Of a stretch of 64,000 bases of DNA, positions 24,888-42,774 are shown one piece after another; position 1 is the first letter of the stretch; the number at the start of each line of letters is the position of its first letter. The DNA comes from Neofusicoccum parvum. Lineage: Eukaryota > Ascomycota > Dothideomycetes > Botryosphaeriales > Botryosphaeriaceae. The position numbers were made by a program, and so were the translations under genes. The notes under the pieces are model-generated. The model saw nothing but the letters and a program-made list of their open reading frames with translations, was not told the origin of the DNA and made no database searches. The stretch is taken from NCBI GenBank assembly GCA_020912385.1, contig CP087206.1:3658001-3722000 (forward strand), read 5' to 3'.

Positions 24888-24960
24888 GCCCGGCTAGCTC
24901 AATCGGTAGAGCGTGAGACTCTTAATCTCAAGGCTGCGGGTTCGACCCCCGCGTTGGGCT
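24888..24960 (+). tRNA. tRNA-Lys (anticodon CTT)
   Basis: 73-nt intronless cloverleaf. Acceptor GCCCGGC pairs with GTTGGGC; D-arm GCTCAATCGGTAGAGC; anticodon arm TGAGA-CTCTTAA-TCTCA gives CTT, decoding AAG; T-arm GCGGG-TTCGACC-CCCGC. The internal A and B boxes are both intact. A run of nine to ten T follows from 24970, the pol III terminator. Confidence 0.96.
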
Positions 24961-25442
24961 CAATTCCCATATTTTTTTTTTGTTTTGCGAATGCTGGGGA
25001 GGAGGTGGTGGTGGCTGCGGCTGCGGCTGCGGCGGGCTAAAGCAAAATTTTTACGCGGCGGGAGGATTGACGTGGCCCGAGCGCGGTCCCTTGTCGGAAG
25101 ACGAGGCGTGTGCATTATTTGTTTGCTTTTCGGTCGCCGAGGGGCGTGGTGGCACATCCCGGACTGCACGGACAGTGACGACGCTGCGTGTTCTCATTGC
25201 CGCAGTCTGAGCTATCTAGCGAAGGAGACACGGCGTCTGATAAGATACGGGCCTCCGACGGCGACGGCGCCCTGCCGAAACTCCCCGGCGTCTCTGTCGT
25301 CATCGCGGGGTACGATGTGCCATCCATAGCCTATGGCCCATAGCCTCTGCACGTAGATATCGCAGCGGCCTCACGTCCTTCGCGCTCTTGTCTCTTCGTG
25401 CCCCCTTTCACCTGAAGCCCGTACCAAGAGCATATCAGCAAC
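24961..25442. other. Intergenic
   Basis: After the tRNA terminator there is a short GGCTGC repeat run (about 25013-25036), then the promoter of the DsbA-like gene. No clear TATA box. Confidence 0.45.
24968..24980 (+). terminator. RNA polymerase III terminator of tRNA-Lys
   Basis: Uninterrupted T run starting about 9 nt after the tRNA 3' end, far longer than the four T needed for fungal pol III termination. Confidence 0.8.
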
Positions 25443-37674: not shown

Positions 37675-38872
37675 CTTGGTCGGAATGAGTTCAAGCAGGC
37701 GCTGCTGAAAGCGAACTCGAGTTTTGCCTGCGCCCTCATATATACTGCTGCTTCGATGCTAGCGGGGTGCATGTACGCACGACAGGGGTCGGGACGACTA
37801 CCCTGCTGACACACATTAGCCTACCAAATGAGAGCCATGCCAGTCCCAATGCTGCATTCTATCCCGAGAAGCTTAAGCAAGCTAAGAACTCTTGCCCACA
37901 GGGGCTTAAATCCCCCGTTGCCAAAGGAAGCGTAAGCGAGGTTTATGCATAGATCGGGGACCAGTCAGCACGCCCTAATTGATCAGCAGGCGCCTTCAAT
38001 AAGCTCCCATGTCCGTGGCAAACTCATTTGATAGGGAGGGCTTTTAGACCGAACAGCGCTATTTCTCGTTCGAAAGCCGTCAGTGTGCCAGCGGATTTTT
38101 CCATGTGGCGAAGTGATCCGTTGAGTGGAACATGCGCGATACAGGGGTTTGGTTCAGATCATGCGCCAAACCTATCCGGAATAATACTCGAGTTCCCAAT
38201 GCAGTGGTGAAAGTTGAAAGCATCTTCATGCTGCAGTATCTCCTAATAGGCTTTTAGGCGTAGACGGTTGAAGCGCAAGGTAGAGGCACAAGGAGATCGA
38301 GAGTCTGCGAGATATCTCATCCTGTGAGGCAGTAAAAATACGGATCAAGGAGGATAGCAGAATGCCTATACACCTGATAAACTTCTTCTTCATTAAGTCA
38401 GTCCGAAATGGAGGTGTAAGGTCCATGGCGATGAATGAGTCCTAAGAGATGTCCTTCGTTCTGGGCAAAGATTTCCAAGACCGACTGGAGAGAAATATCC
38501 AGCAAGCATGATGCGTCAAATCTGTGAATCGGAGTTCAGTTATTCGGCAGGCATGTTTCTTACCGTGACTAATGCCTCTGCCCGCTAGAGCATTTGTGAT
38601 ACGAAGCTTGAACAAAGCCGCGCATGTCGCAGAACTGCTTAGCTCCCCTAAGCTCCACTGCACAGACTTCTTGCAACAGTAAAGATGAAATCCTAGTCTA
38701 TATTCTGTTTCCCTTCGGTTTAGACTTTCTCCGTCTCAAGGAAGAGAAAGGAGGAGGAAATCAGTGCACTCCGTCAGCAGGCAACCGTGGTCTGTGCAAA
38801 ACCGCAACAGTCAGATGGACAACAAAGGAAACCAGGAGCAACAAAACGAAAGCACAAAAGTTAAAAGGATGA
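37675..38872. other. Intergenic
   Basis: Promoter of the peroxidase gene and 3' flank of tRNA-Trp. TATATACT near 37738-37745 (both strands readable) lies about 65 bp upstream of the peroxidase start and may be its TATA box. T runs after the tRNA (seen on the minus strand just below 38868) can serve as pol III terminators. Confidence 0.45.
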
Positions 38873-39021
38873 TGAGGACGGTGCGATTTGAACGCACAGC
38901 CTTCAGGAAACTCCAGGGTTGATTACTGGAATCTGACGCTATAAGGGGTGTTAGTATGTTGTTTGTGTGTGGATGACGAAGTGCGAGTGGAAACCTACCG
39001 CTACCATTGCGCCACGCCCCC
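38873..39021 (-). tRNA. tRNA-Trp (anticodon CCA) with two interruptions
   Basis: On the minus strand: acceptor GGGGGCG (39021-39015) pairs with CGTCCTC (38880-38874) with two G-U pairs; discriminator A. The A box TGGCGCAATGG and T-arm GTGCG-TTCAAAT-CGCAC (B box) are intact. Anticodon stem TCAGA, loop TTCCAGT, anticodon CCA. A canonical intron of 17 nt (38909-38925) follows position 37 and contains CTGGA, complementary to the anticodon region TCCAG. A second insertion of 60 nt (38939-38998) breaks the D-stem after GGTAGCG; it starts GTAGGT, contains TACTAAC 11 nt before its end and ends TTATAG. Removing both leaves a 72-nt tRNA with a complete GCGC/GCGC D-stem. The bottom pair of the anticodon stem is A-C. 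Confidence 0.85.
38939..38998 (-). other. Spliceosomal-type intron candidate inside tRNA-Trp
   Basis: 60 nt, 5' GTAGGT, branch-like TACTAAC, 3' TATAG: the pattern and length of protein-gene introns in this window. Sits between tRNA positions 24 and 25. The pentamer TAGCG occurs at both edges. Confidence 0.65.
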
Positions 39022-41694: not shown

Positions 41695-42774
41695 TTACTG
41701 GGTGGGGGCACCCGAGATGAAGAACCACTTGTCAATGCTGGGGTCGATGGGCGCCGGGTACTGGTTCTCGCCGGCAGGAATGTTGAGGCTCGAGGGGTCG
41801 ACGCGGTCGGGGGACTGGCCGAGGGTGGTGTTGGTACTGCAGGCAGACAATCAGTTCAAGAAGACACATGCACCATGATGGCTAGGAAAACTTACAGAGC
41901 GACCTCGCCCCTGGGGGTCTTGCCAGAGATCAAACGCTCCCAAGCCTCAGCACACTCGCGGACGATGTCCATGGCGTACTTCTTGTTCTTGCACTCGCCG
42001 GAGAAGGCGAACTGGTTCTCGGGCTTGCCGTCGGGGATCTTGTAGATGCGGAACCACTCGTTGGTGGCCCTCAGAAGGCCGGGCAGGTGCCTCTCGACAT
42101 CCTCGACGTCGTTGAGCTTGGGGGCAAGCGGGTCGTTGACGTCGATAACGATGATCTTCCAGTCGGTCTCCTCCTCGTCGAGCAGGGCCATGACACCGAG
42201 GACCTTGACCTGCTTGATCTCACCGGGCTTGCCGACGAGCTCGCCAATCTCGCAGACATCGAGAGGGTCGTTGTCGCCCTTGGCCTTGGTCTCGGGGTGG
42301 ACGACGTTGGGGTCCTCCCAGGTCTACGGCCGTTTGTCAGTGTGCCGATCTCCTGATGGCGGGGCTGCTCGAGAGCAGGTGCGGGGCATACCTGGGGGAA
42401 GGCACCGTAGTTCCAGAGGTAGCCCTTGTGGGGGAAGCAGTTGCGGACGAAGCGAAGCTTGCCCTTCTTGGTGTCCTGCTTGATGGGGTTGAGGGTCTCC
42501 TCCTTGGAGATCTGGAGGGGGCAGCAGGTCAGCGGCGGGGAGGCCAACAGTGGCGGCGGGCAGCACTCACCTCCATCTTCGCATTGGTCCAGCGAGGGAC
42601 CTCGACGATCATGTTGAGGATGGTCTGCTGCTCATTGGCATACAGGGGGACGTCGTGGAAGGGCGAGACGGGGACGCCATCCTTCTCGAGGTAGACGCGG
42701 TGCTCGAGGGTGTTGGGCGCGCCCACCCTGCGGGCAGTGAACTGCTTGGGGGCGTTGGTCGAAACGGAGGCCAT
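41695..42774 (-). CDS. IPP1: Inorganic pyrophosphatase (cytosolic family I)
   Basis: Hydrolyses pyrophosphate released in biosynthesis, Mg-dependent, cytosol. Four exons on the minus strand give about 300 residues. Start [20 protein letters not shown], a little longer than the yeast enzyme. Conserved blocks in order: [70 protein letters not shown], then the metal-binding signature [52 protein letters not shown] and [20 protein letters not shown]. The last exon encodes [20 protein letters not shown] and ends [11 protein letters not shown]. Introns are GT-AG and 55-70 nt. Identification is secure from the signature and the full-length match. Confidence 0.96.

Follow-up and report, generated by a model that had tools for sequence, protein, structure and literature searches.

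Can a nuclear tRNA gene be interrupted by an intron of the mRNA type and still give rise to a tRNA? This question is raised by a tRNA-Trp(CCA) gene in the window, a stretch of 64,000 nucleotides of the Neofusicoccum parvum genome (contig CP087206.1, positions 3,658,001 to 3,722,000), the D-arm of which is split by 60 nt. Introns of tRNA genes and those cut out by the spliceosome are regarded as two distinct kinds, a division that would not hold for a genome in which many tRNA genes contain spliceosomal introns. Judged from sequence comparison, the 60-nt insertion very probably is a spliceosomal intron of the U2 type, and the tRNA gene that hosts it a functional one transcribed by RNA polymerase III (Pol III); the genome has at least 22 such introns.

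The original prediction had located the gene at 39021-38873 on the minus strand, and the insertion, with the motif TACTAAC, at 38998-38939; rereading of the sequence reproduced coordinates and letters and placed the motif at 38956-38950. The gene, designated Trp A, has the following features.

38873..39021, minus strand: tRNA-Trp(CCA) gene, copy A, with two introns (window sequence, paralogue search, ARAGORN)
38999..39021, minus strand: exon part 1, 23 nt, Sprinzl positions 1-24 with no base 17 (sequence)
38939..38998, minus strand: 60-nt GT-AG intron at 24/25 (sequence; same site in paralogue B, absent from paralogue C)
38993..38998, minus strand: 5' splice site GTAGGT (sequence)
38950..38956, minus strand: branch-site heptamer TACTAAC, with the A at 38951, located 12 nt from the intron's 3' end, as presumed branch point (sequence)
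38939..38944, minus strand: 3' splice site TTATAG (sequence)
38926..38938, minus strand: exon part 2, positions 25-37, anticodon CCA at 38929-38927 (sequence)
38909..38925, minus strand: 17-nt canonical intron at 37/38, one-base slide possible (ARAGORN; 4/4 central pairs of a bulge-helix-bulge, BHB)
38873..38908, minus strand: exon part 3, positions 38-73 (ARAGORN, sequence)
39004..39014, minus strand: A-box TGGCGCAATGG, unbroken (sequence; consensus from general knowledge)
38885..38893, minus strand: B-box core GTTCAAATC, unbroken (sequence; consensus from general knowledge)
38856..38866, minus strand: two T4 runs (38866-38863 and 38859-38856), possible weak Pol III terminator (sequence)

Upon removal of the 60 nt, ARAGORN reported a tRNA-Trp(CCA) with a 17-nt intron at 37/38, in agreement with the predicted anticodon-loop intron containing CTGGA, and the mature tRNA has the predicted length of 72 nt. 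The unspliced gene was miscalled as Gly(CCC), and Trp A was reported neither by ARAGORN nor by the Rfam tRNA model in the intact window; mRNA-type introns would hide tRNA genes from tRNA finders. A mismatch in the anticodon stem, A31-C39, is common to all three Trp genes found and is therefore no mark of decay in copy A. Additionally, the window harbors an ordinary intronless tRNA-Lys(CTT) at 24888-24961 and a fungal U3 snoRNA of 221 nt at 2718-2938, which matched its model end to end and is hence without an intron.

The insertion had been likened to mRNA introns of the window. Three of these interrupt an inorganic pyrophosphatase gene (about 41.8-42.8 kb), which among the best 120 of 5763 matches showed 90% identity to Lojkania enalia and 88% to Lentithecium fluviatile and Phyllosticta capitalensis; two of these genera, Lojkania and Phyllosticta, belong to the Dothideomycetes.

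42512..42570, minus strand: pyrophosphatase mRNA intron 1, 59 nt, CTGAC 17 nt from the end
42324..42391, minus strand: pyrophosphatase mRNA intron 2, 68 nt, CTGAC 13 nt from the end
41837..41895, minus strand: pyrophosphatase mRNA intron 3, 59 nt, CTGAT 14 nt from the end

The likeness extended to the architecture, but not to the exact TACTAAC, which none of the three carries. Six mRNA-type introns of the same genome served as yardstick and are 52-68 nt long, with a branch-site match 11-17 nt from the end. Besides the pyrophosphatase introns, these include three met through the pattern GTTCGGTAAGT and judged coding by our own reading; the donor of the latter is therefore selected.

Two further Trp genes, 0.7 kb apart, were found by a T-arm pattern and with the Trp A gene as query.

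C4:1075717-1075861: Trp copy B, 58-nt insertion GTAAGT...GTACTAAT...CATAG at the same point as in A
C4:1074918-1075010: Trp copy C, no insertion, uninterrupted ...GCGCGTCAG...

Copy C represents an empty site, and its sequence marks the exact junction for the insertion in A and B. Compared with C, the exons of A and B show one compensated change of an acceptor pair, and A has one altered D-loop base as well. Outside the signals, 24 of 33 intron positions are identical between A and B (shuffled sequences: 0.60 +- 0.08); the signals themselves are kept.

Trp A is not an isolated case. The genome (43,992,428 bases, 18 contigs) contains 22 GT-AG-type introns in 21 tRNA genes of 11 isoacceptors, namely Trp, Leu-CAG, iMet, Ser-AGA, Ala-TGC, Ala-AGC, His, Glu-TTC, Pro-AGG, Pro-CGG, and Arg-CCT. 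They occupy eight cloverleaf positions (9/10, 17/18, 19/20, 20/21, 24/25, 25/26, 30/31, and 57/58, own numbering), never the canonical 37/38, and are 52-60 nt long. The donor dinucleotide is GT in 21 and GC in one of them, the full donors being GTAAGT (13), GTGAGT (2), GTAAGC (2), and GTAGGT, GTTAGT, GTAAGA, GTACGT, and GCAAGT (one each). Acceptors are CAG in 14 and TAG in eight introns, and the branch-site match, 9-14 nt from the 3' end, is CTRAY in 21 and TTAAC in one. The set thus shows a GT (rarely GC) donor, a YAG acceptor, CTRAY near the 3' end, and exact removal that restores the host RNA, as expected for the U2 type. Among 127,880 random 57-nt segments of the window, a strict signal criterion selected 1 and a loose one 48; for the first 18 tRNA introns the numbers were 12 and 18. 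One Ala-AGC gene, at C4:464511, combines a D-loop intron, a T-loop intron and an anticodon intron.

The signals were in part used for finding the introns. Trp A was given, six introns came from a pattern demanding branch site and acceptor (CTAAY and YAG), four from a pattern demanding the donor GTAAGT, and 11 were found without any intron signal. The latter are Trp B, both Leu introns, iMet, Ser, the D-loop introns of two Ala-AGC genes, and four Pro-AGG introns; all 11 carry donor, branch-site match, and acceptor, one of them with TTAAC instead of CTRAY. An Rfam tRNA search of the genome, in which 63 of 860 candidates were scored, gave 49 matches. All 49 were read; no tRNA-Pro was among them, and a Leu-CAG gene on C5 showed GTAAGT...TCTAAC...AATAG after position 25. 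Of the 15 sites that matched the pattern of branch site, acceptor, and B-box (control 25), seven lay at tRNA genes, namely four Ala-AGC loci, including one truncated piece, and Ala-TGC, His, and Glu-TTC. By querying with tRNA exons of the same genome and with fungal baits, we further obtained a Leu-CAG gene on C17, the initiator Met, Ser-AGA, one Ala-AGC, and four Pro-AGG genes. A split T-loop pattern with 21 matches (control 41) hit seven tRNA T-loops, three known and four new (two Pro-CGG and two Arg-CCT genes), and 14 sites elsewhere; a D-arm pattern with five matches (reversed control 6) hit two known genes and three non-tRNA sites. All genome locus counts are lower bounds, and these searches, read as lower bounds, did not reveal Asn, Asp, Phe, Tyr, Val-AAC, Gln-CTG, elongator Met or Pro-TGG. 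A search for relatives by exact patterns gave no match in collections of viral and of genome contigs, and conservation was judged on paralogues within one genome. Three Gly-GCC genes (L042, L043, L044) have anticodon-loop introns of 66-68 nt according to ARAGORN, which are not of the GT-AG type. At two loci (L111, C14:522157; L112, C8:1083663) a truncated Ala-AGC consists of the 3' part of a T-loop intron and the 3' exon, with no 5' half in the stretch read.

The original prediction had offered the spliceosome or an unusual endonuclease cut as alternatives. The recurrence in 21 genes, the mRNA-like spacing of the signals, their retention in Trp B, and the junction given by Trp C all argue for the spliceosome. 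Pol III would then transcribe Trp A by way of the internal A- and B-boxes, GTAGGT would be recognized by the spliceosome, branching would occur at TACTAAC, and G24 would be joined to C25. From the resulting normal pre-tRNA, the anticodon intron would subsequently be removed by tRNA endonuclease and ligase.

The spliceosome normally acts on RNA made by Pol II, and the tRNAs might therefore originate from capped Pol II transcripts although their introns are spliceosomal. The introns at 57/58, 11 in number, split the B-box (GGTTCG/ANTCC); furthermore, upstream exons outside this T-loop class comprise only 9-30 nt of tRNA and would be uncapped if made by Pol III, which counts against our reading. 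Against Pol II, a TTTT run follows within 45 nt downstream in all 21 genes, and TTTT occurs inside none of the 22 introns as compared to 1776 of 18,270 segments, although this absence is only suggestive. Moreover, T-loop introns contain a B-box-like motif which probably replaces the split B-box. TTCGR or GTTCNANTC was found at offsets 8-24 in 11/11 T-loop introns, in 1/11 other introns, and in 1026 of 42,647 random segments, the form GTTCNANTC having been added after two Arg-CCT introns were seen. With TTCGR alone, the motif is present in 7/7 T-loop introns of Ala-AGC and Pro-AGG versus 2/11 others and 1088 of 12,789 segments, and in 9/11 when Pro-CGG and Arg-CCT are included; the 11 introns are not independent, since four belong to Pro-AGG, two to Pro-CGG, two to Arg-CCT, and three to Ala-AGC. 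At six Ala-AGC loci (L058, L062, L111 (two), L112, L113), a B-box-like GGTTCAATTCCGG lies 8-9 nt past the tRNA 3' end, in L112 as the variant GGGTTTAATTCCGG. It is absent from the intronless Ala-AGC gene L046, and L113 has it though its own B-box is intact. A- and B-boxes were identified by eye. These T runs and B-box-like motifs fit transcription by Pol III. An mRNA-type intron is also present in U6 of fission yeast, a Pol III RNA (Tani and Ohshima, cited in PMC10484740, as far as excerpted); hence, RNA made by Pol III can be a substrate of the spliceosome, and an origin from Pol II transcripts appears very unlikely.

Spliceosomal introns in working genes have further to be distinguished from introns that landed in surplus, disused tRNA genes. 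Other intact Trp genes together with lack of expression of Trp A had been named as marks of a pseudogene. The first of these was found, as copy C lacks the insertion, and the window's own gene may therefore not be indispensable. An mRNA-type intron is missing from at least one copy in six of the 11 isoacceptors (Trp, iMet, Ser-AGA, Ala-AGC, Glu-TTC, His), and the truncated Ala-AGC 3' pieces (C14:522157, C8:1083663) point in the same direction. Three partial or decayed tRNA loci recognized by exon similarity (Thr-CGT, C3:2801502; Cys, C6:1444720; Leu, C7:253219) are without an mRNA-type intron and were also counted against working genes. Two inverted-repeat pairs each join an intact tRNA gene with a decayed sister (Thr-CGT, L105, C3:2801289-2801541; Cys-GCA, L106, C6:1444720-1444975).

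Against disuse, the exons are intact and base changes are compensated. Spliced Ala-AGC (four genes) and Glu-TTC are identical to their intronless sisters over 72 and 73 nt, respectively; iMet differs from its sister by six bases that form three pairs, all still paired, and Ser by one base. Acceptor stems are fully paired, with G-U counted, in 20/21 genes, Ala-TGC keeping a T6-T67 mismatch. ARAGORN recognized a tRNA in all 21 spliced genes, with the right anticodon in 18 and a wrong one in three, as compared to 6/21 unspliced genes, none with the right anticodon. Signals are kept while intron bodies drift: in the four Pro-AGG genes, exons and 37/38 intron are identical (87/87, pairs compared), whereas the GT-AG introns have diverged to between 28/30 and 18/29 identical positions inside. 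Finally, Pro-AGG (4/4), Pro-CGG (2/2), and Leu-CAG (2/2) are interrupted at every locus found. No uninterrupted copy of these three was detected in the genome searches, which give lower bounds, so that this is not a proof. Disused genes are thus an extremely improbable explanation, and we continue to regard the interrupted genes as probably functional.

If the introns were ectopic ones cut by the tRNA-splicing endonuclease, such as those of Cyanidioschyzon or archaea, GT...AG would be a coincidence. Ectopic and multiple tRNA introns of 11-69 bp are described for a red alga and a nucleomorph, many of the nucleomorph ones without a defined BHB (excerpts of PMC3978253 and PMC4090602). Examination of the insertion borders for a BHB had been proposed to decide between the two machineries: a 4-bp central helix between two 3-nt bulges, with a 3-bp outer helix, was found in none of the 22 introns, 18 of which were analyzed with all equivalent borders and four at the assigned borders. 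Trp A and Ala-TGC can form the central helix, the outer helix being absent, and Trp B lacks the 4-bp helix of Trp A. This result favors the spliceosome, with the qualification that the yardstick was mixed: the canonical Trp A intron showed 4/4 central pairs, other canonical introns with hand-set borders 0-4, and the BHB test is therefore not perfect. Furthermore, the 60-nt insertion has hardly any structure (-1.1 kcal/mol, z 0.40), and the endonuclease pathway has no role for donor, branch site, and acceptor. Excision by the endonuclease hence retains next to no probability, and splicing by the spliceosome is preferred. Group I and group II introns possess a catalytic core and measure hundreds of nucleotides, as opposed to the 60 nt found here, and no such Rfam match was obtained in the window at gathering thresholds; an assembly error was rejected because independent diverged copies exist.

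If the introns are spliceosomal, translation would be coupled to the spliceosome, and the making of some tRNAs, including those for proline, would need the mRNA-splicing machine besides the tRNA enzymes. We consider it rather probable that the spliceosome has become obligatory for tRNA maturation in this lineage: as every Pro-AGG and Pro-CGG gene found is interrupted, most proline decoding would need spliceosomal splicing. Within this extended reading, T-loop introns would carry their own Pol III B-box and therefore represent promoter and intron in one unit, which may have spread between tRNA genes, a proposal based on the 57/58 site and the B-box-like motif shared by Pro, Ala, and Arg genes. 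Such genes would offer a natural test of the spliceosome on a short Pol III RNA, and of the entry of introns into structured, essential RNAs.

In titles and abstracts of the open-licence literature, preprints excluded, no spliceosomal intron in a nuclear tRNA gene was reported among the matches listed. Both the splicing machine and the intron type are known in themselves. Canonical 37/38 introns, which depend on endonuclease and ligase, occur in many of the same genes. The GT-AG introns differ from them in position, length, the lack of anticodon pairing and of a BHB, the GT-AG ends, and the branch-site match. A displaced Pol III promoter box is also known from yeast SNR6, where the B-box lies downstream; here, in contrast, the B-box-like motif lies within the spliced-out intron, at Ala-AGC loci downstream as well. 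Introns of the endonuclease type in eukaryotic tRNA genes are the subject of PMC4090602, PMC3978253, and PMC13149111, as far as excerpted, and non-canonical introns in archaea are treated by tRNAscan-SE 2.0 (PMC8450103, in excerpt). Cyanidioschyzon merolae and nucleomorphs resemble our case in having several introns per tRNA gene at varied positions with an interrupted internal promoter; the excerpts treat those introns as BHB/endonuclease type and do not mention a GT-branch-AG arrangement, and a text search for 'spliceosom' in PMC4090602 gave no hit. Two of three U6 matches in the genome studied here were read and have no intron; one intronless U6 (L157, C16:1152130-1152229) is followed by a T7 run and then by GCGTTCGATCCC, which resembles a downstream B-box. 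Among the closest known cases is U6 of fission yeast, likewise a spliceosomal intron in a non-coding Pol III RNA of a fungus. U6 is itself part of the spliceosome, and its intron is thought to have arisen by reverse splicing near the catalytic site (PMC10484740, in excerpt), whereas here many tRNA genes are interrupted at eight sites.
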